Made by a program: the position numbers and the translations under genes | DNA from: a virus | Virus record (IMG/VR): IMGVR_UViG_3300022745_000062 | Span: 1-43,521 of that record | Length of the DNA stretch: 43,521 nucleotides | Strand: one strand, 5' to 3' | In this document: one piece after another, positions 602 to 26,616 of the stretch | How positions within the stretch are numbered: the stretch's first letter is position 1 | Layout of the letters: every line of letters starts with the position of its first letter | Notes under the pieces: generated by a model | The model's input: only the letters and a program-made list of their open reading frames with translations | Database searches by the model: none | What the model was told of the DNA's origin: nothing

Positions 602-3600
602 TTACTTCTTCCCCTTTCCGGTGGTGACACCCTTGCCGAACTCCAGGATGTTGTCGGGGTTCTCTTCTCCTTCAGCATAGTGCTTCAGATACTTCGTAGT
701 GGCCGCAGCTTGGGCAGTGCCAGGGATGCCGAGCAGGTAGCCGGTGGCCTCCACCTCCTTCAGGATGAAGTCGCCGAGGTCGTCCTTCCCTTCGGCGTAG
801 CGGATCGGGTTGACGGACAGCGCATGGGCCACCTTGGTGAGGGTGCCCACCGCAGGCGAGAACCGCCAGTCGGTGAAGGGCTTGCCCGCCAGTGCGTTGT
901 CCATGACACTGCCGAAGTCGCGCACGATGGGGGCAGTGCCCATAGGCGCGGTAACAGCCTTGCGCAGGATCCAACCCTCAATGTCCTCCTTGTCCTCGGG
1001 CCACTGGCCCTTGAGCAGGTCGCCGAGGATGTTGGCCATGATGACGGCCAGCAGCACACCGGAGAAGGTAGGGATGCCCTTCATGCCGTTGATGTTGTGC
1101 CCAGCGTTGCGGAGCGCGTTGTAGTTGCTGGTAGCGTCACCCATGAACATGGTGACGAGCTGCACCCACGGGTTCTTGTTGGCCTGGATGGTAACGAGGT
1201 CCTTGGGTGCGGAGGTCATGAGCTTCATACGCACCGTGCGGTCGGCTTCCTTGACGGCCTGCTCCTGGTCACCGTGCTTCTCCATGGACTGCTGGTAGGA
1301 AGCCAGCCACGCAGGCCAGCTCACGAAAGCATCCATCATCCCGAGCCCAGCGAAGGCGGCGCGGTTGACCTTGGCCGATACGGAGGTGTCGCCCTTCAGC
1401 TCGTTGAGCCTGCTGCGCAGGTCGCGGTCGAGGTTGTCCTTGCGCTGAGCCATCTCCGGCGAGAGGTCGGTGATCATCTCCACGAGCTTGGTGTTGTTGG
1501 TCATGAGCTGGGTCATGGCCGACAGGAGCTTCTTTGGGCTCACACCGTAGTCGCCAGGGGCGATGACGCGAGTAATGTCGGAGAGCTGCACGATGAAGCT
1601 GGAGAACTTGAAGCCGATGACCGCAGCAGCCGTGTTGGCCTTGAGCGCAGCCATGAGCCGGTTGGGACCGGACATGCCCGCAGACGCACCAGCGTTGCGG
1701 TCGCTGGCGATGTTCACCAGCCACGGCATGAGCTGGGCCTCGTAGGCTTCGCCGATGTGCTCCTTGATGAGCTTGGAGAAGCGATCGCTGCTGAAGAGCC
1801 GGTTCAGGCTGAGCACCACCTCGCGGTGGGTGAGGTCCTTGATCTGGTTCGTCAGCTCAGCCGTCATGATGCGGTGGAAGTCGAGCATGAGCGGGTAGGT
1901 CTTGCCCGTCAGCTCCTTGGTGTGTCCGGTGCTGGTGGTGGCGCGGCTGTAGCCGTTGGCCGTCATGATCTGCTGGACGGTGCCGCCCTCCTGCTTCTTG
2001 GCGATCTGCCCGTTGAGGTGAGGGTCGGCCACCAGTGGGAAGTAGCCGCCCTCAAGGCGAGCGGAGAGGCGCCCATTCTCGTCGTAGACATCGAAGGCGC
2101 GGTTCTCCTCCCACTTGGGTCGGATGCCGGTGAGCCGCTCTTCGAGGTCGAGCACCAGCGGCTTCATCGCGTCGAAGGACTGCCATATCGCGGACACCAG
2201 CTTGAAGTCGTTGGGGCCGAGCTTGGCGAAGGCCCGTGCCAGGGTCTCGTTGTTGAGGCCCATGCCAGCGTTGCCCATCATGAGCTTCTCGTAGCGCGTC
2301 TGCTGCCCGTTGTAGAGCAGCATGGTGATGATCTCGGCGCGGGAGGTGGGGTGGTCGAGACCGATCTCGAAGGTCTCGTCCATGGACTCGCGGTATTCCT
2401 TGGGCATGGCTTCGTAGGCGTCGAGCACCACCTTGTTCACCGCGAGGGTGAGCTTGTAGTCCTCGTGCTGGGCCTTGGCCACACGGTCCCAAATATAGCG
2501 ATGCGCGGGGCCGTTCACATCCTTGCCGTCGATCCAATTCACGAGCTGCTCGATCTTCACCATCGTGGCGTCGAGGCCCTGGAGCAGGGCACCGGCCTTG
2601 TAGGACTTCTTGTTCCGCCGCACGTCGCCAGCGCTGAGGATCTTCTTCGCGCCGGGTAGGTTGGTGATCGCTGCAGCCTCAAGCTCATCGAGCATGGTCT
2701 CGTAGGCCACGCGCTTGCCATCGATGATGGTGCCCAGCTCCTGATAGGCGAGGTGCTTGATGTTCTTCAGCGCGTCCTTCAGGTCACGCAGCTCGGCGAC
2801 GGTGAGCTGGCGGTAGTTCCGCAGCTCCAGCTCATCGAGCAGCCAAGGCGCGATGACGGTGTCCTCGGCGTTGACCATGCGCTGCTGCACCCACTCGCCC
2901 AGCGATTCGCGGTTGGCGATGCGCTCGTTGGTCTCACGCTCGATGCTGAAGCGGTCGCGGAGCGCGTCGAACTGGGCGAGGTAGGAGCCACCAGCCTTGC
3001 CCATGTTGCCGCGCACGGCGGCTGAGTCGTTACGCTTCACCCAGGTGCGGAAGTCCTCGGCCATGCGCTTGGCGTCGAGGGCCTCCTTGTAGAGGAAGTG
3101 GGAGAGCATCTCCCGCTCCTTCGCCTGGGCGGCGGTGTCGTAGTCGCCCTTGAGCGCAGCCCGGTAGGCTTCGTTGCCGTGCTTGCGCTGGTCAGCCAGG
3201 AAGCGGTCGGGCCGAAGCTCCCAGGCCTTCATCCGGCTGACGTGAGCGCTGGCGGCGAGCCGGAAGCCCTGGAGCTTCTGGAAGACCGACGCCTGCCGTG
3301 CCCGTGCATCATTATCTGCGGAGATGCGCTGTTGTTCCTGAGCAAGGGCCTCCCGGTCGGTGGCCGCTGCTCTGGCCTGGGTGGTGGCCTCTTCGTTAGC
3401 CTGACCCACGGCCTGACGCACCGCTGGTCGCATTTCGGCTTGCTTGCGACGTAGGGCCAGCAACTCGGTGGCCAGCACCTTCTCCCGGCCCTCGCCCATG
3501 AGGGTCTCCTGGGCAGCTTCGCGCAGGGCGGCGGGGTCGCGGAGGAGGTCGGGGTGGGTCTCCTGGATGAGGGTCTTGGTCTGCTCGTTGATGACCTGGG

Positions 3601-6600
3601 TCCGCGACGGCAGGTCGGTGAGTGCCTGGACGAGCGCGTCACCGCTACCGTCGAAGAGGTTCAGGTGGGCAGCCAGCGCGTCACCATCGGCACCTTCGGG
3701 GCCGTAGACGCGAGCGATGCCCTCGGTGCCCAGCTTGGTGAGGATCTCCCTGCCGTAGCGCTCGACCAGCCAAGCGGTGCGGAGCTTGGGCACCTCGGTC
3801 TCGCCGTCTGCCATCTTGCCGCTGGTGATGGCCAGCAGCGCAGCGTATTCAGGACGGGCGTTGACCTCGGCAGTGACCTGGGCCTTCAGCGTGGCGAAGG
3901 CTTCCTTGTAGTCGGCCTTCTGCTCGCGGGCGAGCTGGCGCATGAGCTTGGTGGTGAGTCGCTCCTTGGCCGCATCGACCTCCTTGGCCACGGCCTTGCT
4001 GTAGACCTGGAACTCAGCCTGGGACATGCCCGCCTGCTCAGCCGTGGTGAACATCTTGGTGATGTCCTTCGACGCCTCCTCGATCTCGCTCTCGGCAGCG
4101 TAGAGTCGGTCGAACACTCCGCGCACTTCGTCGTTCATGTCCACCTTCACACCGAGCATGCTCCTGCCTTGCTCAGCCAACGTGCGGGCCAGCTTCGACA
4201 GCCAGCGCGAGAAGTTGCGGAAGCTGGACTGGATCTCCGGCACCGGGGCCTTGCCCTCCATCAGGTAGACGAGGTGACCATCGGCGAACTTCTCGTGCAT
4301 TGCGGTGGTGATCTGACTGCGGTTCTCGACACCGAACCACTTGAGGATCTTTGCGTAGTCCTCCTTCACCGACTGGTCGGCGTTGTGGTCGTCGGCCATG
4401 TCGCCGAGCAGCTCAAGGTAGAAGTGACCAAGCTCGTGGAAGATCGTGCTCTTGTCCTCGCCTTCCAGCAGGGCAAGGTTGAACTGGCGCGGCTCGCCGG
4501 TCTTCGGGTTGGTGGCGAACTCCAGGAAGCCACGCTCTGCGCCCTTCTCGCCAGCGTAGTAGGTCTCCAGGGTCTTGATGGCAGACGCATCGAAGATGAC
4601 GTAGTTGTAAAACTTCTCACCCTCGAAAGCACCACGGGACTCAGCGTCAAGATACTTCATGCCCTTCACTCCAGCGGCACTCAGAGCTTCGGACGCAGCC
4701 TTGTCGCTGCCCAGCGTCTCCGACAGCGTGAAGTAGATGTTCCTGCCGTTGTCCTTCAACGTCCTGGCTATCTGGCGCCCTGCGTCTGCCTTGCCCTTGA
4801 ACGCAGCAGTGACAACCTCGGCCACAGCAGACCTGACACTGTCGGGCTGATTGGGCAGTGGGCGCTCTTGCACCAACAGGTTGCTGTCGTCCGGCAGGTC
4901 TACCTTGTAGAGCTTACCGCTGGGCACTTCGAGCTTGGTTGCGTCGCCGCTTTTGATAAGCTGAACGGCTTCGCGCAGCGCTTCACGCTCAGCGAACGTG
5001 TAGCTGCTGAACCTATCGTTGGCTCTGTCGCGCAGCGACTCGATAGCGTAGTCGGTGTTGCCGTCATACATGTAGAGCGCGTAGGCGGCTTCGTGGCGTG
5101 GGTTCGTGGAATCGAAAGGCCTTCCGTCTCCCAGCGGGTTGTTCAGATCCGGCTCTACCAGCGAGGTTCTGTAATACTCGGCCACCTGCCTGTTTCCAGC
5201 GAAGTAGAGACCCCAACCATAGGTCTGGTTGCCCTCGCCCTTGCCGATGTGGTCGAGGGTGAACTGCGAGAAGTTGTAGGGCGAGCCGTGGTAGGCAGGC
5301 TGCGCCACACGAGTCACACCGCCCTGTGCGTTGGTGATGTCGAGCTTGCCACCGTGCGGGCGCACCGGGATGGTGTCGTGGCCCAGCATGACGATGGCTC
5401 GTCCCGGCACCCCAGCCGCAGGGCTGATGTAGCCGTCGTAGCCGCCAGCGATGATGGCATGCTCGATGGCGTTGCCGTCGCCGGGGTGGGCAGTGCGAAT
5501 GCCCTCGGGGTCAGCTTCGAGGTCGTAGAGGTTCGTGGCGCGGAACTCGTAGGGAATGTCGCCCCTGACCACACGCTCCTTGGCAGGCAGACCTCCGTCC
5601 TCGCTGAGGTAGCCGTAGGTGCGCTTCAGCAGCGGGGAGTCGCTGGGCTCAGTGCTCAGCCGCTGACGCTCGCGGCCCGCAGAGCCCTGGCCGTAGAAGC
5701 TGCCGCCGAGAGCGGTCAGGCCTTCGGCATTTCCGTAGTGGACGGCATGGGCTTCGACGGCATGCTTGCCTCGGCCTCGGGCTTGGAAGACAGGAACGCC
5801 TCCACGCCCTGCACCAGATCCTGCATCGCCCCAGCCGTGCTGGGTGAAGTAGCGCTCGTTGAGCTTCTCGACTTCCTTACGCCCACGACGGACGGCCCGG
5901 TCTTGAAGACTGGGTGCCCCTTCGGTGCCGGTGTCACTTTCAGCTTTCGCATCAAACGCTCCTCTCTCTACAAGGTTGCTCGTCGCCTTGTAAGAGACGA
6001 GCTTCAAGTCTACATCGGCAGGAACCACCGAGGCCACAACCTCGGCAATTCTACTGTGCAGTTGTGCTGCTGTTTCTGGTGACGGGGTGAAGTCGAAGGC
6101 GACGATGCGGATACTGGCGGGATCGCTCGCGTCGGGGAATACCGGCAGGCCTGAGGCCTCCAGCGCACGTCCCAGGTCGAGCAGCTCCCCCTTGCTGAGC
6201 GGCCTGCCCAGGTCCACGGACACGGCATTATGCTCCTCGACCGGCGCGTTGGGGTCGGGCTTCGCATTCCAGGCCACTGCGTCCTGGTCGTTCATCACGT
6301 CGGCTGCGATCTGCGCGGCCTCGTTGAGCTGGGCCTCGTCCGTCACACGGAGCACGAAGGCCGTCACCGGGTTGGACTCACCGTCCCAGTAGCCGTGCCC
6401 CTGCTTGGTCTCGTCCACGCTGATGCCAGCGTCGCGCAGAGCGTTGAGCACGATGCCCATCTTCTCGGCGTGGTAGGACTCCAACTGCTCAGGCGTGGCG
6501 TTGGCGATGCCGGGGAAGATGCCGCTGCGCACGTTACCACCGGGCATGGACTCAGCGGTGAGCTGGCCCATGAAGTAGTCCGTAGCGGTAGGACCCTGGA

Positions 6601-9600
6601 AGAGCTTGGTGGTCTGGCCCGACCAGCTCGGCGGGGTGATGCCACCAGCGTTCTGCACGATGGCGTCGCGGACCTGCTCCTCGGTCAGATCGCCCTTCTT
6701 GAACTTCGACCACAGGTCTGCGGTGGACCAGTAGAGCGTGGACTTCTTCACGTCCTCGCCCTTGATCCTGCGGACCTCGGAGCCCTTCTTCTGGTTGGCC
6801 TCGAAGAGCCCACGCACGGACTCCCAGGTGATGCTCTGCATCTCGCGGGGCAGCACACCGCGCTCCGCAGCCGCTCGCTTGTAGGCCTCGAAGAAGAGAC
6901 CGTAGGAGCCCCGGATGCCGACAGCGTTGGACTCGTTTCCTCTGAAGTTGAAGGTAGCCTCTTCGTCCGCAGCAGCCAACGGCATGAGCAGGCCAGCCGC
7001 AGCAGCGTGGGTGTCGATGGTGATGTAGTTGGCGTCGCTGGGGTCGAAGATGTTGTTGTAGAAGTTGCGGACCTTGTTGGCGGTGCCGATGGCTTCGTGG
7101 ACCGCTTCCGGCGACGCATCCTCGAAGACACGCACCACCTTGGCGAGTTGGTCGAAGCCCGCGAGCCAGCCTAGCGCACGGGGCTTGGTGCCAGCCTTGT
7201 TCGTGGCTTTGCCGAGCGGGGTGCCCTCGGGCGTGGTGATGTTGAAGGTCTTGTCACCGTGTGCCTCGGAGTAGGTACGCAGCCACACGGCCTTGTCGAA
7301 GTCGGAGGTCAGTTCGCTGAGCTTCTTGCCTCGGATGTTGGCGAGTGCAACCTTCTCCTTGGCGATGCTGGGCGTGGACTTGGCAATGGCCGACATCTCC
7401 TTCGACCACACGAAGTCCTGCTTGGTGGCGAGCACGTCGAAGACCTGACGGGCCAGCTCGATGTTGCTGAACCACTCCTGCTGCGGAGACAGCGCAGCGA
7501 GGATGCCTGCAGCCTGCTGCAGGGTCTTGCCGTGCATGTCGGCGAACTGCTGAGCGATGGTCTGCGCACCGTCATACCAGAGCTTGGCCCGGTTGCGCAG
7601 GTCGGCGGGCATCTTGTCGAAGAGGAAGAGCAGGTTGCCCTTCACATGCTCGATGAAGCGGTTGGCGCGGGACTTGTCCGAGCCCTTTCCGAGCTTGATC
7701 CCAGGCCACGAGGCCACGGTGTCGAGCACGGTGGTGAGGGTCTTGGGTGCGGCGAGCATCGCTTCGAGGTCGGTCACCAGCTTCGCGGTGAGGTCCACAG
7801 CGGTGCCCGCAGCGGACGGCACACGGGCGGGCAACGGCTGCCAGAGGCGCGTCTGCGCCACCTTGAGTTGACCGGTGACGGCATCGCGCCGGGAGCCCTG
7901 CACAGCGTAGTCGGCACGGGCCTGCTCGATGGTCGTGGGGCGCGAGCCCACGATCCTGTCGTCGCGCCACACGCTCCAGGCGTCTTCGCCACCGTGGTTG
8001 TAGTAGAGCCCGTCGAAGCCCTTGGCCTTCAGGAACTCAGCCGCAGCGTCCGGACCGCCAAGCTCCGTCTGCATGTGCGCCCACAGGTCGCCACCAGACA
8101 GGTTGGTGGACGTGAGCACGCCGAACTGCACAGCCTCAGTGGGGGTGTAGGAGGTCTCAAGGCTGGCGTCGAAGGGCGTGTAGTTGGACCGCAGCGTGGC
8201 CCGCCACAGCCCGTTGGGGTTGCCCTCGGCATAGGCCAAGCTGACATCAGGTCCCGCCGACAGGTGGAGCCCAGGCCCCATGCTGCCGCTGGCCGACGCG
8301 CCCAGGCCCTCGGCCTTGAGCGCACCGAAGCCGGTCGCTACTGTGCCGTGCCAGAGGCTTGCTGGCGGCTGGACTCCTCGGCCAACTTGGCTTCGTGTGC
8401 GGCCTTCTGCTCCTTGGACGCTGCCGCTTGGAACTCGCCCAGCAAGCGGAGATACTCGCGCTGAGGCTCGCCCTCCTTCCGTGGCCGGAACTTCGGCAGG
8501 GGTCGTGCCCAGGTCAGGTCGAGAGGTGCGCTCGGTGAGGGCATAGTCAGCTCCGTATTGGGCGTCGAGCTTAGCATGGATGTCCTTGGTGATGTTGAGC
8601 TGTTCCTGCTTGAACAACTGCGCGATTGTCTTCTTAACCCTCGGGGCCTGGATGGCGAGTACACGAGCGTAGCTGTCGGCCACCTCGCCCGCCTGCCGCT
8701 CGGTGAGAGCGCTCGTGGCCTGCATGAGCATGCCTGCGATCTGCTGCCGGACGTGCTCGCGCTCGGGGTCCTCGGCGGGGAGAGCGGCCATTGCCTTACG
8801 CTGCTCCTCCTGCACCTGCTCCTGGGCGAAGGTGTTGTGGACCTCCGCGATGGTGGGGCCACCCTGGAAGACCCTGGTCATGTCGTAGATGGACTGGAAG
8901 TCGTCGGTGCCCGCGATCTCGTTGGCATAGTGCCCGGTCGGCACCACGAGGTCGCTGCCGTTCTTGATGGCCATGTCGAAGTCTTCGCCAGTCACACCGA
9001 GCTTGCCGGTGGCGAAGGCGCGGACCTCTTCAGCGCTGAGGCCACGCTCGGTCTGGTAGTAGCGCATCAGACCCTGCGCGTCGATGAGCAGGTTGTCCAG
9101 ACTCCCACCCTCCGTGACCTGCTGCACGAACTCACCATATTTGGCGGGCGCATGCTTGACGAACTCAGACCGCAGCTTCTCGTCGTGGAGCGACTGGATG
9201 AATGCAGTGTTCTGCGCGGCGTGTGCGGCCTGCGAGCCGTGCAGCACACCGCCCATCAAGCCGCCCATGCTCGCGCCACCCACGAAGTTCATGATGGCGT
9301 TGGAGGCCCACTCCTTCGCGGTCTTGTCGGGCTGGTAGGTGATGTAGGCTGCGAGGTCTTCGCCGAGACCCTCCATCACTTCCTGCATGCCTTCCTTCGC
9401 ACCTTGCGCGGCAAACGAGGCCAGCCGCTGGCGAGCACGAGCTGCGAAGGTCGCGCCCCACGGAGACTTCGCCACCTTGGTGAAGAGGTCCTCCATGATC
9501 TTGGCTTCGATGGGCGAACCAGCCGCACCGGAGAACAGGCCAGCCAGCAGCGCACCAGGAGCCACCACGCGCCACGCCTCTTCCTCGGTCATGCCCTTGG

Positions 9601-10561
9601 CCATCATCTCCTGCACACCCTGCTCAGCGCTACCGGTGATGACACGGCCAGCGTTGACCACGGACACCGGGCTCTTCGCATAAGCCCACACGGCCTTGGC
9701 GAACTGACCCGCCTTGGCCAGCTTGCCGGAGTTGGCGGCAGTGACCGCAGCCACGGACGCACCACCAGTTACGGGGGCAGTGGCCGCGCCCAGCAGATAC
9801 TGGACGAGCATGGGCACAGCCTCGCTGGCCACCATGTCGGTGATGTTCTCGATGCCGTGAGCCGTGAGCGGGTTCACCGCACCCCAGTTGATGAACTGCT
9901 CTCCGGTCTTGGGGTCGGTCAGCAGAGCGGACTCGGTGGCCCGCTTCTTGGCGTCGAGCCACTTCGCACTGTCCTTCATCATGCGGAAGGCGAGGAGCCC
10001 AGGCTGAGCAACGCCCGTGGCGTCTGCGTAGATGTCCAGGTTCGCATCGCTGATCTGTGAGCCCGCAGGAGCGAAGGCGTTGAAGACGGTCTGCGCCAGC
10101 TCCAGCGGCATCGCGCCGAGCTTGTTGGTGCCGTAAGACAGCCGGTTGAAGATGTTGCCGAAGAAGCCCCGGCCCGAGCGCTCGTTCTCAGCATCGACCC
10201 TCGCGGCCTCGGCCTTCTTGAGCTGGTCCTCCACGGAGAGCAGCGTGTCGAACTGCCCGTTGAGCAGGTCGAAGTGCAGAGGGTTCTGCTGCGCCCACTT
10301 CGCGGTGCGGGTGCCCACCAGCTTCTCCACAGGCACACCAGTGACCTTGGCGGTGTGCTCGTAAATCTTCTGCACCTCGGGGTCGAGGGCCTGGATGGGG
10401 TCAGCACCGACCTGCTGCTGTAACGTGATGGCCTTGCCCACCGTGGCGGGAGCACCGAAGGTTCCGGTGGCAGAGACAGACTGCTGCAGCGCGTCCTTTT
10501 CGCGCTGCTTCAAGAACTCGTTGTAGCGAGCGAGCTGCTGGTCTACAGGCTCTTCAGGCAT
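602..10561 (-). CDS. Giant polyvalent internal virion protein (3319 aa; T7 gp16 position)
   Basis: This is the last and largest of the internal virion proteins and occupies the place of T7 gp16. Proteins in this place are ejected into the cell and help DNA entry. It is far longer than T7 gp16 (about 1,300 residues). Glycine/alanine-rich hydrophobic stretches lie near residues 235-280 and 420-445. An ADP-ribosyltransferase-like module with a WHG motif (H738) spans about 735-870. A module with NKVRNFYNN and ITIDTHA, resembling helix-hairpin-helix glycosylase-like polyvalent domains, covers about 950-1200. A further polyvalent-type module lies at about 1590-1740. A second ART-PolyVal-like module (H1758-G-S, then GWGLYF) covers about 1755-2000. 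A zinc-peptidase HELGH (H2042, E2043, H2046) follows. The remaining C-terminal part is helical and charged, with a hydrophobic segment near 3170. No lysozyme or transglycosylase motif is obvious. Activities are inferred from motifs only. Confidence 0.8.
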   Translation of the reverse strand: MPEEPVDQQLARYNEFLKQREKDALQQSVSATGTFGAPATVGKAITLQQQVGADPIQALDPEVQKIYEHTAKVTGVPVEKLVGTRTAKWAQQNPLHFDLLNGQFDTLLSVEDQLKKAEAARVDAENERSGRGFFGNIFNRLSYGTNKLGAMPLELAQTVFNAFAPAGSQISDANLDIYADATGVAQPGLLAFRMMKDSAKWLDAKKRATESALLTDPKTGEQFINWGAVNPLTAHGIENITDMVASEAVPMLVQYLLGAATAPVTGGASVAAVTAANSGKLAKAGQFAKAVWAYAKSPVSVVNAGRVITGSAEQGVQEMMAKGMTEEEAWRVVAPGALLAGLFSGAAGSPIEAKIMEDLFTKVAKSPWGATFAARARQRLASFAAQGAKEGMQEVMEGLGEDLAAYITYQPDKTAKEWASNAIMNFVGGASMGGLMGGVLHGSQAAHAAQNTAFIQSLHDEKLRSEFVKHAPAKYGEFVQQVTEGGSLDNLLIDAQGLMRYYQTERGLSAEEVRAFATGKLGVTGEDFDMAIKNGSDLVVPTGHYANEIAGTDDFQSIYDMTRVFQGGPTIAEVHNTFAQEQVQEEQRKAMAALPAEDPEREHVRQQIAGMLMQATSALTERQAGEVADSYARVLAIQAPRVKKTIAQLFKQEQLNITKDIHAKLDAQYGADYALTERTSRPDLGTTPAEVPATEGGRASARVSPLAGRVPSGSVQGAEGRTRSQVGRGVQPPASLWHGTVATGFGALKAEGLGASASGSMGPGLHLSAGPDVSLAYAEGNPNGLWRATLRSNYTPFDASLETSYTPTEAVQFGVLTSTNLSGGDLWAHMQTELGGPDAAAEFLKAKGFDGLYYNHGGEDAWSVWRDDRIVGSRPTTIEQARADYAVQGSRRDAVTGQLKVAQTRLWQPLPARVPSAAGTAVDLTAKLVTDLEAMLAAPKTLTTVLDTVASWPGIKLGKGSDKSRANRFIEHVKGNLLFLFDKMPADLRNRAKLWYDGAQTIAQQFADMHGKTLQQAAGILAALSPQQEWFSNIELARQVFDVLATKQDFVWSKEMSAIAKSTPSIAKEKVALANIRGKKLSELTSDFDKAVWLRTYSEAHGDKTFNITTPEGTPLGKATNKAGTKPRALGWLAGFDQLAKVVRVFEDASPEAVHEAIGTANKVRNFYNNIFDPSDANYITIDTHAAAAGLLMPLAAADEEATFNFRGNESNAVGIRGSYGLFFEAYKRAAAERGVLPREMQSITWESVRGLFEANQKKGSEVRRIKGEDVKKSTLYWSTADLWSKFKKGDLTEEQVRDAIVQNAGGITPPSWSGQTTKLFQGPTATDYFMGQLTAESMPGGNVRSGIFPGIANATPEQLESYHAEKMGIVLNALRDAGISVDETKQGHGYWDGESNPVTAFVLRVTDEAQLNEAAQIAADVMNDQDAVAWNAKPDPNAPVEEHNAVSVDLGRPLSKGELLDLGRALEASGLPVFPDASDPASIRIVAFDFTPSPETAAQLHSRIAEVVASVVPADVDLKLVSYKATSNLVERGAFDAKAESDTGTEGAPSLQDRAVRRGRKEVEKLNERYFTQHGWGDAGSGAGRGGVPVFQARGRGKHAVEAHAVHYGNAEGLTALGGSFYGQGSAGRERQRLSTEPSDSPLLKRTYGYLSEDGGLPAKERVVRGDIPYEFRATNLYDLEADPEGIRTAHPGDGNAIEHAIIAGGYDGYISPAAGVPGRAIVMLGHDTIPVRPHGGKLDITNAQGGVTRVAQPAYHGSPYNFSQFTLDHIGKGEGNQTYGWGLYFAGNRQVAEYYRTSLVEPDLNNPLGDGRPFDSTNPRHEAAYALYMYDGNTDYAIESLRDRANDRFSSYTFAEREALREAVQLIKSGDATKLEVPSGKLYKVDLPDDSNLLVQERPLPNQPDSVRSAVAEVVTAAFKGKADAGRQIARTLKDNGRNIYFTLSETLGSDKAASEALSAAGVKGMKYLDAESRGAFEGEKFYNYVIFDASAIKTLETYYAGEKGAERGFLEFATNPKTGEPRQFNLALLEGEDKSTIFHELGHFYLELLGDMADDHNADQSVKEDYAKILKWFGVENRSQITTAMHEKFADGHLVYLMEGKAPVPEIQSSFRNFSRWLSKLARTLAEQGRSMLGVKVDMNDEVRGVFDRLYAAESEIEEASKDITKMFTTAEQAGMSQAEFQVYSKAVAKEVDAAKERLTTKLMRQLAREQKADYKEAFATLKAQVTAEVNARPEYAALLAITSGKMADGETEVPKLRTAWLVERYGREILTKLGTEGIARVYGPEGADGDALAAHLNLFDGSGDALVQALTDLPSRTQVINEQTKTLIQETHPDLLRDPAALREAAQETLMGEGREKVLATELLALRRKQAEMRPAVRQAVGQANEEATTQARAAATDREALAQEQQRISADNDARARQASVFQKLQGFRLAASAHVSRMKAWELRPDRFLADQRKHGNEAYRAALKGDYDTAAQAKEREMLSHFLYKEALDAKRMAEDFRTWVKRNDSAAVRGNMGKAGGSYLAQFDALRDRFSIERETNERIANRESLGEWVQQRMVNAEDTVIAPWLLDELELRNYRQLTVAELRDLKDALKNIKHLAYQELGTIIDGKRVAYETMLDELEAAAITNLPGAKKILSAGDVRRNKKSYKAGALLQGLDATMVKIEQLVNWIDGKDVNGPAHRYIWDRVAKAQHEDYKLTLAVNKVVLDAYEAMPKEYRESMDETFEIGLDHPTSRAEIITMLLYNGQQTRYEKLMMGNAGMGLNNETLARAFAKLGPNDFKLVSAIWQSFDAMKPLVLDLEERLTGIRPKWEENRAFDVYDENGRLSARLEGGYFPLVADPHLNGQIAKKQEGGTVQQIMTANGYSRATTSTGHTKELTGKTYPLMLDFHRIMTAELTNQIKDLTHREVVLSLNRLFSSDRFSKLIKEHIGEAYEAQLMPWLVNIASDRNAGASAGMSGPNRLMAALKANTAAAVIGFKFSSFIVQLSDITRVIAPGDYGVSPKKLLSAMTQLMTNNTKLVEMITDLSPEMAQRKDNLDRDLRSRLNELKGDTSVSAKVNRAAFAGLGMMDAFVSWPAWLASYQQSMEKHGDQEQAVKEADRTVRMKLMTSAPKDLVTIQANKNPWVQLVTMFMGDATSNYNALRNAGHNINGMKGIPTFSGVLLAVIMANILGDLLKGQWPEDKEDIEGWILRKAVTAPMGTAPIVRDFGSVMDNALAGKPFTDWRFSPAVGTLTKVAHALSVNPIRYAEGKDDLGDFILKEVEATGYLLGIPGTAQAAATTKYLKHYAEGEENPDNILEFGKGVTTGKGKK

Positions 10562-21795: not shown

Positions 21796-23292
21796 TCAGA
21801 CCTCCAGTGGGTTGTAGTCGAGCGTCCTGCGAGTCTTGGGGCTCTGCTGACGCATGTGGGCGAGAGTGCCCGCTCGTGGGCGTGGTGCTACGGGGAACGC
21901 GAAGGTGAGCATGCAGGCATCGGCGCGGTCAGGGCTGCGTCCGATCTCCTCCTTGATGTCGTCCTTCTCACAGATGCGGAACTTGTCGCCCTGGAAGGTG
22001 TAGGTTATCGCGCACAGCTCCTCCTTGAGGAACGGGTCACGAGGCAGCGAGCCACCGTTCTTCACCCAGTTGGCTAGCAGGAACGCCATCTCCGAGCGCT
22101 TGTTGAAGTAGCGAGGGTCTGTGGCCTTGCCGCTGAAGTAGACCTCGATGCAGTCACGGCCCAAGCTGCGCAGCTTGTCGATCACACCGACACCGTAGCC
22201 ACCACTCGCGTCGATGAAGTTCGCGTCCACACCCTCCCAGGTGTCCTCAGCCGCTGCGACCTTCGCAGCCACGAGCTGGGTGTCAGGGATGTGCATGGGC
22301 TCCAAGGGGAGCATCACCAAGCCCTGCCGCCTTGCGATCACGCTGTCGTCGCCACCTTGCCGTGCTACGTCGACGCCGAGGAGCTTTGCAGCATGGGTGA
22401 TCTCCCGCTCGGTGTAGACACGCTGCATCGCAGCTTCGACCTCCTCATCGCTGAGGAGTGCGTTCACGTCTGCTGAGGGGAACTGGCCCAGCACACGGAC
22501 CTTCACGAAATCGGAGTCGATGCCGTAGTCATCGACCCAGGCCTGCAACTGCTTCTTGTTCGTCATGCGCGCCGTGCGGCTGTCTACGTGGTGGCGGGTC
22601 CAACGTGTGCGGAACCTGCCGAAGCAGTCCTTGAAGCGACCACGCGCACGGGTTGGGTTGCCGAAAGCGAACCACAGGATCTGCGTGTCTTCGTCGGTGA
22701 GCGCACCCTCAGCCACTTCCCAAATCTTGTCGGGGATGGCCGATGCCTCATCGAAGATCAGCAGCACACGCTTGCCCTTGTTGTGCAGACCGGCGAAGGC
22801 TTCGCTGTTCTTCTCACTCCAGGGCACCATGTCCACGCGCCACGTCTTCACGTGCCCATCCACGTTGCTGATCAGCGCTGTGGCCTCCAGGGTGAACCAG
22901 TGGCTGTTGAGGGAGAGGCGATGCCACTTGGCCAGCTCAGCCCAGGTCTTAGTCTTTAGCTGCGACTCTGTGTTCGCGGTGACCACGCCCTTCGTGTCCA
23001 CCATCGTGCTCATGGACCAAAGGATCACCCACGCCACGAGTGCGGACTTCCCGATGCCGTGGCCTGAAGCGACGGCCTCCTGCACTGCGCGGTCTGCGGT
23101 CTTCAGTCCGTCGCGCACTTCGCACAGCAGCTTGGTTTGCCATTCGTCTGGACCCTCGAACTCCTCAAGCTCCTTGCCCACCTCGCCCCATGGGAAGAAG
23201 GCCAGCACGAACTTGTATGGATCGTTCTTGCAGCGCACAGCTAGGTCCGCGATGCGGGCATCCTCTTCGGGGGCCACCACGCGCTTGGCCAT
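21796..23292 (-). CDS. terL: Terminase large subunit (ATPase and nuclease)
   Basis: This encodes 498 residues. The N-terminal ATPase has a Walker A GHGIGKS (residues 77-83) and Walker B VLLIFDE (176-182). The C-terminal RNase H-like nuclease shows acidic residues in GVDVARQGGDD (D308), FIDASGG (D361) and GRSPDRADA (D455/D458). The enzyme powers DNA into the head and cuts the concatemer. The start at 23292 is the ATG that overlaps the small terminase stop as TGATG; the upstream open frame lies inside the small subunit gene. The packaging strategy cannot be told from the protein alone. Confidence 0.93.
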   Translation of the reverse strand: MAKRVVAPEEDARIADLAVRCKNDPYKFVLAFFPWGEVGKELEEFEGPDEWQTKLLCEVRDGLKTADRAVQEAVASGHGIGKSALVAWVILWSMSTMVDTKGVVTANTESQLKTKTWAELAKWHRLSLNSHWFTLEATALISNVDGHVKTWRVDMVPWSEKNSEAFAGLHNKGKRVLLIFDEASAIPDKIWEVAEGALTDEDTQILWFAFGNPTRARGRFKDCFGRFRTRWTRHHVDSRTARMTNKKQLQAWVDDYGIDSDFVKVRVLGQFPSADVNALLSDEEVEAAMQRVYTEREITHAAKLLGVDVARQGGDDSVIARRQGLVMLPLEPMHIPDTQLVAAKVAAAEDTWEGVDANFIDASGGYGVGVIDKLRSLGRDCIEVYFSGKATDPRYFNKRSEMAFLLANWVKNGGSLPRDPFLKEELCAITYTFQGDKFRICEKDDIKEEIGRSPDRADACMLTFAFPVAPRPRAGTLAHMRQQSPKTRRTLDYNPLEV

Positions 23293-23849
23293 CACTCGGC
23301 CTGCTTCGCACGTTGCTCTGCGGCCTGCAGAGCGTCTACGACGGAGTCCACCTTCACGCTCACGTTGTCGTGCAGCATGCCCAGGTGGCGAGCGGCCAGG
23401 GTGAGGGTGCCCTCCTTGGAGACGAGCTTCACCTTCTTGGTGTAGCCAGTCCACACACGACGCCTGTCCTTGCCCTCGCCCTGCATCTCGAAGGTCTCCA
23501 CAACCTCGAAGGCTGCGATGGCTCTGCGAATGTGCTCGGGCATGTCGGGGATGTTCTTCAGCGTCCCATCCTCCCGATACATCTCTTCAGGGTCGAAGAA
23601 CGCAGCAAGATGGATCTCCTTCAGCACACGCGCTGCATCGACCTCAGCCCGCTCGATCACCTTCTCAGTGTGCTTGGCAATGAAAACTGCCACCTCATGA
23701 TCCCTCAACAGCCGCTCACCAGCAGCGTGGGCAGTGGGTGCGGAGTAGCCAGCACGTATAGCAGCCTGCGTAGCGTTGCGGTCCTTGAGAAACTCGGCAG
23801 CGAACACGAGCTTCTTCGGCAGCGGCTTCGGTGGCTTGGCTTTCGACAC
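23292..23849 (-). CDS. terS: Terminase small subunit
   Basis: This encodes about 185 residues of the Terminase_2 type: an N-terminal helix-turn-helix (FLKDRNATQAAIRAGYSAPT), a central oligomerisation region (HTEKVIERAEVDAARVLKEI) and a basic C-terminus. It recognises the packaging start on phage DNA and delivers it to the large subunit. I prefer the GTG at 23849 because GGAG precedes it; a GTG at 23888 would add 13 residues. It is the first gene of the leftward late operon, next to the divergent control region. Confidence 0.88.
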   Translation of the reverse strand: MSKAKPPKPLPKKLVFAAEFLKDRNATQAAIRAGYSAPTAHAAGERLLRDHEVAVFIAKHTEKVIERAEVDAARVLKEIHLAAFFDPEEMYREDGTLKNIPDMPEHIRRAIAAFEVVETFEMQGEGKDRRRVWTGYTKKVKLVSKEGTLTLAARHLGMLHDNVSVKVDSVVDALQAAEQRAKQAE

Positions 23850-24016
23850 GTCGTGGTCTCCAACGGGAAGTATCAGCGACGTGCCCACCTATAGCAATGC
23901 CTCGCTACAGGAGAAAATGGGCAGCAAACCCAGCATGGGCGCGGGACTCAGCGAATATCCGCTACAGGAAAACACAGGAGATTCAATTTTCCTGTATCGA
24001 ACGGGGAGTCAATACC

Positions 24017-24170
24017 GGCGCGGGTTTGCGCCCCTCTACTACAGCAATACAGGACTTTTCTTTAGTTCTAAGAAGAAGAAGAGATAGTTGTACACCTAAA
24101 GGAGGAAAAAGCTTAGGGTGACTTGGGCGTTTTTTCCTGTGTTCCTGTAGTGACCAATCAAACCCGCGCC
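24017..24170. repeat. Long-range 12-bp inverted repeat enclosing a second hairpin
   Basis: The 12 bases at 24017-24028 are the exact reverse complement of 24159-24170, 130 bases apart. Inside lies an 8-bp inverted repeat, AGGAAAAA (24103-24110) with TTTTTCCT (24131-24138). Nested inverted repeats within an AT-richer, site-filled intergenic region are typical of origins or multi-site regulatory loops. Confidence 0.7.
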
Positions 24171-24196
24171 AGTGCTGCATCTCTCCTTTCGCCCAC

Positions 24197-24211
24197 TACA
24201 GGAGACCTGTA
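24197..24211. promoter_or_regulatory. Palindromic operator-like site
   Basis: TACAGG-AGA-CCTGTA is a perfect 6-bp inverted repeat with three bases between the arms, the best copy in the array and about 110 bases upstream of the first rightward gene. It looks like a dimer-binding operator. A single half-site follows at 24219. Confidence 0.55.
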
Positions 24212-24325
24212 TCAATCTGCTGTATCAGATCGGGCCGGAGTCCAAAATCGGCTCGAAACACCCTTGACCCCCGGCCCCACCAGGAGGAGACTTACATTCC
24301 GGGCACTTATATAGGAGGCCTTCCG

Positions 24326-24559
24326 ATGTCCAAAATGGGGCGACCACCCAAGCTCTACACAGTCACCACCACCGACCTGGGAGACGGTCAGATCGTTGCC
24401 GAGACTCCCTACGTCGGCCTGCAGCAGCTCTCCATCGGGCTCGGTATCACCGAGACCTTGGTGGGCCGGATGCTCTCCACCCTCGGTGGTGAGTTCATGC
24501 GAAAGCGCGAGCTGGAAGACGGCACCGTGCTCGTGGATCATGTGAGGCGAGTTGACTGA
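24326..24559 (+). CDS. Small early protein, possible HTH DNA-binding protein
   Basis: This 77-residue protein is the first gene of the rightward arm, with AGGAGG eight bases before its ATG. It starts MSKMGRPPKLYTVTT. Residues 31-53 (GLQQLSIGLGITETLVGRML) have the spacing of a helix-turn-helix. I do not recognise a named family. Its place beside an array of operator-like sites suggests it could regulate the divergent promoters, but that is inference. Its TGA overlaps the ATG of the replication gene by one base. Confidence 0.65.
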   Translation: MSKMGRPPKLYTVTTTDLGDGQIVAETPYVGLQQLSIGLGITETLVGRMLSTLGGEFMRKRELEDGTVLVDHVRRVD

Positions 24560-26616
24560 TGGCCAGCGCTCGCACCATCTCCCTCGCAGCCGAGAAGCTG
24601 GAGGCCTACGGTCTCACCCTTGAGCTTGCGAAGCAGCTCAACATCGAGGTGCTCGACGCCTCAGACACGCAGGCCGTAGACGCCAACTTCAAGGCCATCC
24701 CGTCCATGCGTCTGCGCTACATGGACCCAGCCAACCCAGGTAAGCCACTCACACCACACTCAAAGTGGCCAGCGTTCCAACGCTTCCGCTACCTGGAAGA
24801 CCCGCCACCGAATAAGAAGGGCAAGGTCCAGCGTTACGACCAGTCCGTAACATCAGGTGTGTGCGCCTACTTCCCATCGCTGCTCGACTGGAGGCCGGTG
24901 CTCACGGATGCCACCATCCCGCTCTTCATCACGGAGGGTGAGTTCAAGGCAGCGAAGGCTTGCGAGCGTGGCTTCCTCACCATCGGGCTCGGTGGTGTGT
25001 GGAACTTCACGAGCAAGGCCTCTGGTGGTGTGCTGCTCCGTGAGCTGGAGTCCGTGAACTGGGTGCAGCGTGATGTCTACATCGTCTACGACAATGACGG
25101 CCAGCCCAAGGAAGAGGTCATCATGGCGTTGAACCGTTTGGCTGAGGAGCTGTGTGAGCGAGGAGCCCTCGTCTACACCGTCTTCCTCCCATCGGTGAAG
25201 CCAGGGAAGACGGGGCTGGACGACTACTTCGTGGCGAACCCTGACCCCGCAGAGTTCCGGCAGCTCGTGCTGCTCACCCGTGTGAGTCTCACCATGGCCA
25301 AGCCGCTGCACAGCATGAACGACCGCTACACGCTGCTGCATGCGCCCCAAGGCATCGGCCTGCTGAGCACCGGCAAGATCATGAGCCTCGATGCCTTCAA
25401 CCTCATCGAGGGCAAGCACAACTACCGCGAAGGTGTGCTGCACAAGGACAACACGCTCGTGCAGAAGAAGGTCAGCCTGTCGTCGGCGTGGTTGCGTTGG
25501 TCCATGCGCAGAGAGTCACCGGCCACGGCCTACATGCCCGGTGCTGAGCGTTTGGTGGACCAGACCTTCAACACATGGCCAGGGTGGGGCACCAAGCCTG
25601 TGAAGGGTGACGTGAGCCCGTTCCTGCGCGTCGTGGACAACCTATTCGATGCCTGCACGGTGCCCAAGGAAGAGGTCAAGGCCGCGAAGAAGTGGTTCGT
25701 GCAGTGGCTCGCGTTCCCCATCCAGAACCCTGGCGTGAAGATGTTCTCCATGGCTGTGCTGCTGGGTGCCCCGCAGATCGGCAAGTCGCTGCTGGTCTCC
25801 ATGGTGTCGCGCATCTACGGAGACAATTTCCACCAGCTCAGCACCAACGACCTCACGTCGCAGTTCAATGGTTGGGCAGCACACGTTCAGTTCGCATTGG
25901 GTGACGACATCATCGGCTCTGACAAGCGAGCCCACGCCACCGAGTTCAAGACCATGATCACCCGTGATTGGGTGGTCGTGAACGAGAAGAACATCCCAGC
26001 CTACAAGGTGCGGGACTGCATCAACTACATCTTCACCACCAATGAGTTCGACGCCTTCTTCATGGACGACGACGACCGGCGCAACTTCATCTGGCACTGC
26101 ATGGGTGAGAAGATCCCTCTAGCCGAGGGCAAAGCCATCCGTGAGTGGGTGGACTCCGAGGCCGGTGGCAATGCGCTCCACCACTACCTGCTCAACGTGA
26201 GCCTGGAGGGCTTCGACCACACACCCGCGATGATGACCACGGCCAAGTCGTCCATGACCGACCTCGGCAAGAGCGACCTCGACCTGTGGTGCCAGCGTCT
26301 GCGCGACACGCCGGAGCTGCTGCTCACCGGCAAGGCCAGCGACCTCTACACGTCACGCGAGCTGCTCAGGGTCTACGACCCGCACGGCAACCACAAGGTC
26401 ACCCCCAACGGCATGGGCAAGGCCCTGTCTCGCGCCAAGTTCGTGCAGGTGCTGGGTGCCAACCCGATCATGTGGGAGGGCGGCAACGAGCGGTTCTACA
26501 TCGTGCGCAACAAGGAAAAGTGGCTGCGGTCCAACCACGCCCAGGTCCGTGCCCACCTCCAGAAGACCAAACCCAAGCCTGAGCCCATGCCCAGGCAATA
26601 CAAAGGAGCGTCGTGA
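24559..26616 (+). CDS. TOPRIM primase - SF3-like helicase replication protein
   Basis: This encodes 685 residues. The N-terminal half is TOPRIM-like (DUF3854 type): TEGEFKAAKA near residue 123 and VYIVYDNDG near 172 supply the acidic residues of a primase. The C-terminal half is an SF3-like helicase of the kind found in phage NrS-1-type replication proteins (DUF5906): Walker A GAPQIGKS near 403, ALGDDIIGS as Walker B, then VNEKNIPAYKVRDCINYIFT with a sensor-type TTNEF. It probably unwinds and primes phage DNA for the family-A polymerase encoded later in the same arm. It ends in a basic, Pro/Lys-rich tail and overlaps the next gene. Confidence 0.85.
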   Translation: MASARTISLAAEKLEAYGLTLELAKQLNIEVLDASDTQAVDANFKAIPSMRLRYMDPANPGKPLTPHSKWPAFQRFRYLEDPPPNKKGKVQRYDQSVTSGVCAYFPSLLDWRPVLTDATIPLFITEGEFKAAKACERGFLTIGLGGVWNFTSKASGGVLLRELESVNWVQRDVYIVYDNDGQPKEEVIMALNRLAEELCERGALVYTVFLPSVKPGKTGLDDYFVANPDPAEFRQLVLLTRVSLTMAKPLHSMNDRYTLLHAPQGIGLLSTGKIMSLDAFNLIEGKHNYREGVLHKDNTLVQKKVSLSSAWLRWSMRRESPATAYMPGAERLVDQTFNTWPGWGTKPVKGDVSPFLRVVDNLFDACTVPKEEVKAAKKWFVQWLAFPIQNPGVKMFSMAVLLGAPQIGKSLLVSMVSRIYGDNFHQLSTNDLTSQFNGWAAHVQFALGDDIIGSDKRAHATEFKTMITRDWVVVNEKNIPAYKVRDCINYIFTTNEFDAFFMDDDDRRNFIWHCMGEKIPLAEGKAIREWVDSEAGGNALHHYLLNVSLEGFDHTPAMMTTAKSSMTDLGKSDLDLWCQRLRDTPELLLTGKASDLYTSRELLRVYDPHGNHKVTPNGMGKALSRAKFVQVLGANPIMWEGGNERFYIVRNKEKWLRSNHAQVRAHLQKTKPKPEPMPRQYKGAS

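Follow-up and report, generated by a model that had tools for sequence, protein, structure and literature searches.

The window analysed in the present study, i.e. the whole stretch of 43521 nucleotides (43.5 kb) of viral DNA, carries capsid, connector and terminase genes and hence belongs to a phage with structural genes of its own. On its minus strand, at 602–10561, there is a 3319-codon frame with a DUF7178 match and a weak match to an ADP-ribosyltransferase (ART-PolyVal), so that its product is a candidate for a polyvalent protein that enters along with the virion. No RNA feature came up in Rfam and tRNA searches. Between the terminase small subunit gene and the replication arm lies a gap of 437 bp. 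The gap and its neighbours, as derived from gene annotation and domain matches, are as follows.

23292–23888, minus strand: terS, the terminase small subunit gene, left-hand neighbour of the gap.
23889–24325, no strand: non-coding gap and candidate replication origin region, from the terS start to the start of the 77-amino-acid protein; synteny kept in the viral contigs L001 and L003/L070.
24263–24292, plus strand: possible right-arm promoter (TTGACC, 18 nt, GAGACT), read by eye; the stretch is also found in L001.
24326–24559, plus strand: 77-amino-acid protein with a beta-beta-helix-turn-helix-beta-beta model, from a fast-changing family placed between array and primase.
24559–26616, plus strand: primase–helicase (DUF3854 and DUF5906 domain matches; 685 codons), the proposed initiator and binder of the sites.

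A promoter consensus scan of the gap found no promoter, the candidate at 24263–24292 included.

The first-pass annotation had described a dense array of TACAGG sites in both orientations within this gap, and our counts bear this out. The word occurs 13 times in the 43.5 kb window, and seven of these copies lie in the gap (spanning 23906–24211), the other six elsewhere. In 2000 dinucleotide shuffles of the gap the mean count was 0.2 and the maximum 3, and seven was never reached. The gap holds six copies of the longer word TACAGGA and the other 43 kb a single one; for [CA]TACAG the counts are nine and 12. Two degenerate copies, ACACAGGA at 23972 (plus) and 24135 (minus), bring the total in the gap to 11 sites (nine NTACAG and two NCACAG) split over two arms. 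The sites and the elements that accompany them are given below.

23905–23912, plus strand: site CTACAGGA.
23962–23969, plus strand: site CTACAGGA.
23972–23979, plus strand: degenerate site ACACAGGA, ten bases after the site at 23962.
23990–23997, minus strand: site ATACAGGA.
24014–24028, plus strand: outer inverted-repeat arm, GGCGCGGG element; a similar element occurs in L001.
24036–24135, no strand: least stable 100 bp of the record by nearest-neighbour energies, a purine/AT-rich tract (AAGAAGAAGAAGA) aligned in relatives and proposed as the melting site.
24039–24046, plus strand: site CTACAGCA of the inner left pair, pointing to the centre.
24047–24054, plus strand: site ATACAGGA of the inner left pair, pointing to the centre.
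24135–24142, minus strand: degenerate site ACACAGGA of the inner right pair, pointing to the centre.
24143–24150, minus strand: site CTACAGGA of the inner right pair, pointing to the centre.
24159–24173, minus strand: outer inverted-repeat arm, GGCGCGGG element; a similar element occurs in L001.
24196–24203, plus strand: site CTACAGGA, which forms the left half of the perfect palindrome.
24205–24212, minus strand: site ATACAGGT, right half of the palindrome.
24218–24225, minus strand: site ATACAGCA.

The perfect palindrome TACAGG-AGA-CCTGTA noted previously is present at 24197–24211 and is the only one in the whole record. The direct copies reported ten bases apart correspond to the sites at 23962 and 23972, the second being degenerate, and a second direct pair, 8 bases apart, is formed by 24039 and 24047. 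Both inverted repeats that had been claimed were also recovered, each somewhat longer than described: the outer repeat, given as 12 bp, extends over 15 nt (24014–24028/24159–24173; 93% complementary, 130 nt apart), and the nested inner repeat, given as 8 bp, over 17 nt (24038–24054/24135–24151; 88%, 80 nt apart). In addition, a second repeated element with the core CAGCA-YGG-CGCGGG is found three times in the gap (23931–23945, 24014–24028 and 24159–24177) and at comparable places in L001 (about 2893, 2971 and 3120); it may be a putative site for another protein.

Nearest-neighbour energies place the starts of the least stable 60, 80 and 100 bp stretches of the entire record at 24056, 24036 and 24036 respectively, and all three minima fall inside the array. 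The inner pairs at 24039/24047 (plus) and 24135/24143 (minus) face each other across the least stable 100 bp, and the same arrangement is found in relatives. GC skew was set aside as evidence for an origin because it tracks the coding strand of the two arms.

The genes terS, the 77-amino-acid homologue and the primase occur in identical order in the two viral contigs L001 and L003/L070, whose primases are 79% and 56% identical with that of the window respectively. As to the conservation of sites in relatives, TACAGG itself is absent from both contigs, whereas the same gap holds a CTACAG array in L001 and CTACAC/CTACAG arrays in L003/L070; the central AAGAAGAAGAAGA tract aligns across all three. 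To the letter, the absence of TACAGG counts in part against the array; as sites with an altered word occupy the same gap, however, we take this observation to speak for function and not against it. The site word has drifted in concert and the layout has been retained, which is what one would expect if a single protein reads many sites.

Profile searches yielded about 90 loci with related primases, or 79 after removal of near-duplicates, and the 67 of these in which a clear AT-rich centre precedes the primase served as the non-redundant test set; AT content alone decided the choice of the centre. Around this centre CTACA was the most over-represented 5-mer (210 seen compared with 45 expected), with a density of 6.4 per kb compared with 1.5 per kb in the remainder of the same loci. 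Plus-strand sites were concentrated in the 100 bp to the left of the centre and minus-strand sites 50–100 bp to the right; the outer left arm has one more cluster of minus-strand sites, and few sites lie in the centre itself. Other words were found in the same layout in other phages, e.g. ATACAC in L086 and TTACAG in L108. The module also occurs in a cultured phage, Stenotrophomonas phage AXL_3. A motif-free test for inward-facing words, with P-values bounded by 40 shuffles per locus, was significant for 26 of the 67 loci compared with seven of 67 control AT-rich regions from the same loci, and was not passed by the remaining 41. Extra conserved strings, e.g. CTAAGTNGTTGAT and CACATGTGG, were seen beside the arrays of L107, L140, L109, L090, L112 and L133.

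We also scanned viral contigs with the bare inward CTACA pattern, which returned 54 loci, many of them repeats inside genes. About 30 matches were intergenic, including some near-duplicates, and 13 of them share a record with a gene for DUF5906, VapE or a homologous primase. In L178, L183, L193 (where the helicase domain match is below the curated cut-off), L198 and L216 the array lies about 40–110 bp beyond the 3′ end of a helicase gene of the DUF5906 or VapE type, and three further loci carry the same primase family as the window. Since the scan matches in-gene repeats and also GC-rich arrays with no helicase nearby, the inward CTACA pattern alone is not diagnostic.

Given these observations, we consider it likely that the gap is the replication origin of the phage and that an initiator encoded by the phage itself binds its NTACAG-core sites; this initiator is most probably the primase–helicase encoded one gene downstream. 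The iterons of a replication origin, one of two functions offered in the first-pass annotation, are well supported by sequence comparison, i.e. by the inward sites, the least stable DNA, the adjoining primase–helicase and the recurrence in dozens of phages. We infer origin activity, binding by the primase–helicase, ring assembly and melting alike. Initiator molecules would bind both arms, each contacting the sites through its own C-terminal winged helix, and would assemble as two rings, face to face; the rings would melt the central segment at 24036–24135, the initiator would prime and unwind in both directions, and the PolA-type polymerase of the phage would then extend.

The array also lies between divergent transcription units, and the possible promoter follows on the right, some 40 bp from the last site, as would suit a multi-site operator for both arms with no origin function. 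Such an operator would, however, leave unexplained both why the sites point inward at the least stable stretch of the genome and why other phages have inward CTACA arrays beyond the 3′ ends of their helicase genes, and among the proteins scanned we found no known regulator family (nor any integrase, repressor or other origin-type initiator). We therefore regard a purely regulatory array as very improbable. A replication origin would be compatible with the same protein autoregulating the right arm, and the sites adjoining the possible promoter could regulate transcription as well. Less probable still is a packaging site (pac or cos) for the terminase small subunit. It is true that terS directly adjoins the gap and that in most of the relatives examined the packaging genes are on the left. 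In L143, however, the array is retained with terL 2.6 kb away and no terS recognized beside it, the inward arrays of other phages adjoin helicase genes, and packaging would not account for a stability minimum at the centre, between inward sites.

If the gap is an origin, the sites might still be read by the 77-amino-acid DNA-binding-like protein, which would then recruit the primase–helicase. In about 48 loci the gene for this protein family is the direct neighbour of both the array and the primase, between the two, and the model of the protein has two helices in a helix-turn-helix-like arrangement, with no significant fold match in a comparison with the PDB. A sequence search with the 77-amino-acid protein alone gave no relatives, and homologues surfaced only through synteny and profile; the family diverges fast. 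Eleven loci with 6–9 CTACA sites are without the small gene (L090, L091, L107, L109, L111, L112, L113, L123, L129, L133 and L140), and profile searches detected no copy anywhere in seven of their records, which are 36–40 kb long and possibly incomplete. L090 and L103 have nearly identical primases and arrays in both, but the small gene is present in L103 only. On a tree of the initiator (the primase minus its winged helix), obtained by a quick search and with several weakly supported forks, the CTACA trait, scored by exact words, changes four times and the small gene 13 times. From the array loci without the small gene, the L090/L103 pair and these tree changes, the primase–helicase is the likelier binder, and the 77-amino-acid protein is probably not needed for the array. 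Recruitment through the small protein is thus an unlikely arrangement, and its role as the binder, as put forward in the first-pass annotation, was not upheld, because close relatives keep the array without the gene. HNH endonuclease-like genes stand in place of the small gene in L090, L107 and L129, which suggests replacement or a homing-type insertion.

The primase–helicase, by contrast with the small protein as the likelier reader of the sites, gave a model with a mean pLDDT of 92 and a C-terminal winged-helix-like segment at about residues 591–656. Residues of this winged helix are somewhat more associated with the word than are other regions, an effect that is modest and not decisive; L093 is a counterexample, with a CTACA-type winged helix and a different repeated word.

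The model resembles self-loading helicases and matches the primase–helicases of NrS-1 and SaPI5. In PICI/SaPI origins two sets of iterons flank an AT-rich melting site, and the initiator helicases are of the Rep or Pri-Rep kind (PMC6092414, PMC7581432). The window likewise has two sets of short iterons around an AT-rich candidate melting site with an initiator helicase adjoining, and this putative initiator is of the D5/VapE class (DUF5906 and DUF3854), its predicted structure matching the SaPI5 primase–helicase with an E-value of about 1e-10. PICI/SaPI initiators bind their iterons via the C-terminal domain, and a winged-helix-like C-terminus with the modest residue-to-word association is predicted here. 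In contrast, their origin lies immediately 3′ of the initiator gene, whereas the window array is upstream with the 77-amino-acid gene between; theirs is a satellite without capsid genes of its own, whereas the window is a phage with structural genes; and the window words are unrelated to the published ones, as far as the accessible parts of those accounts give them. The module works like PICI/SaPI origins, yet it is not a PICI origin, a name that we withhold because two defining features, the position 3′ of the gene and the satellite lifestyle, are lacking.

Among other systems, Cch2 of SCCmec is also a D5-class helicase, with direct repeats reportedly recognized specifically by its C-terminal domain, the mode of recognition that we propose for the window primase–helicase; it differs in having a putative origin downstream of the gene, only three iterons and a separate polymerase-type primase (PMC7581432). 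The best structural match of the helicase half was the C-terminal region of the NrS-1 primase–polymerase–helicase (PDB 6k9c and 6lrb), with a TM-score of about 0.7 normalized by the target. The N-terminal half of NrS-1, however, is unlike that of the window protein. The alpha protein of the satellite phage P4 reads short repeats, and P4 has separate ori and crr regions. Like the window protein, alpha combines primase and helicase in one polypeptide (PMC6092414). Our search of the literature, which covered mainly open papers and few behind subscription, found no description of CTACA iterons with a primase–helicase.

A broader proposal is more tentative, and we lean somewhat against it as a whole: many ordinary tailed phages, as one large group, may generally use a PICI-type origin, with inward iterons around an AT-rich centre, read by a D5/VapE-class primase–helicase. 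A CTACA core would be common to several distant initiator lineages, words would switch with the initiator, and origins could be located from sequence alone. The presence of such origins in dozens of uncultured tailed phages would link the replication of satellites and of phages through one initiator class, would supply a rule by which origins can be located in the sequences of metagenomic phage genomes and would offer natural initiator/iteron pairs with changed words for studying the evolution of DNA recognition.

Inspection by eye of cultured phages of Paenibacillus, Staphylococcus, Clostridioides and Enterococcus (L218, L219, L220, L222, L223 and L224) showed repeated words around AT-rich DNA just 3′ of a VapE/D5-type helicase gene. 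The words are unrelated, one per phage, and include GTAACAGA, CATAAGACA, GTCAACAAT and AGTATCCAC.
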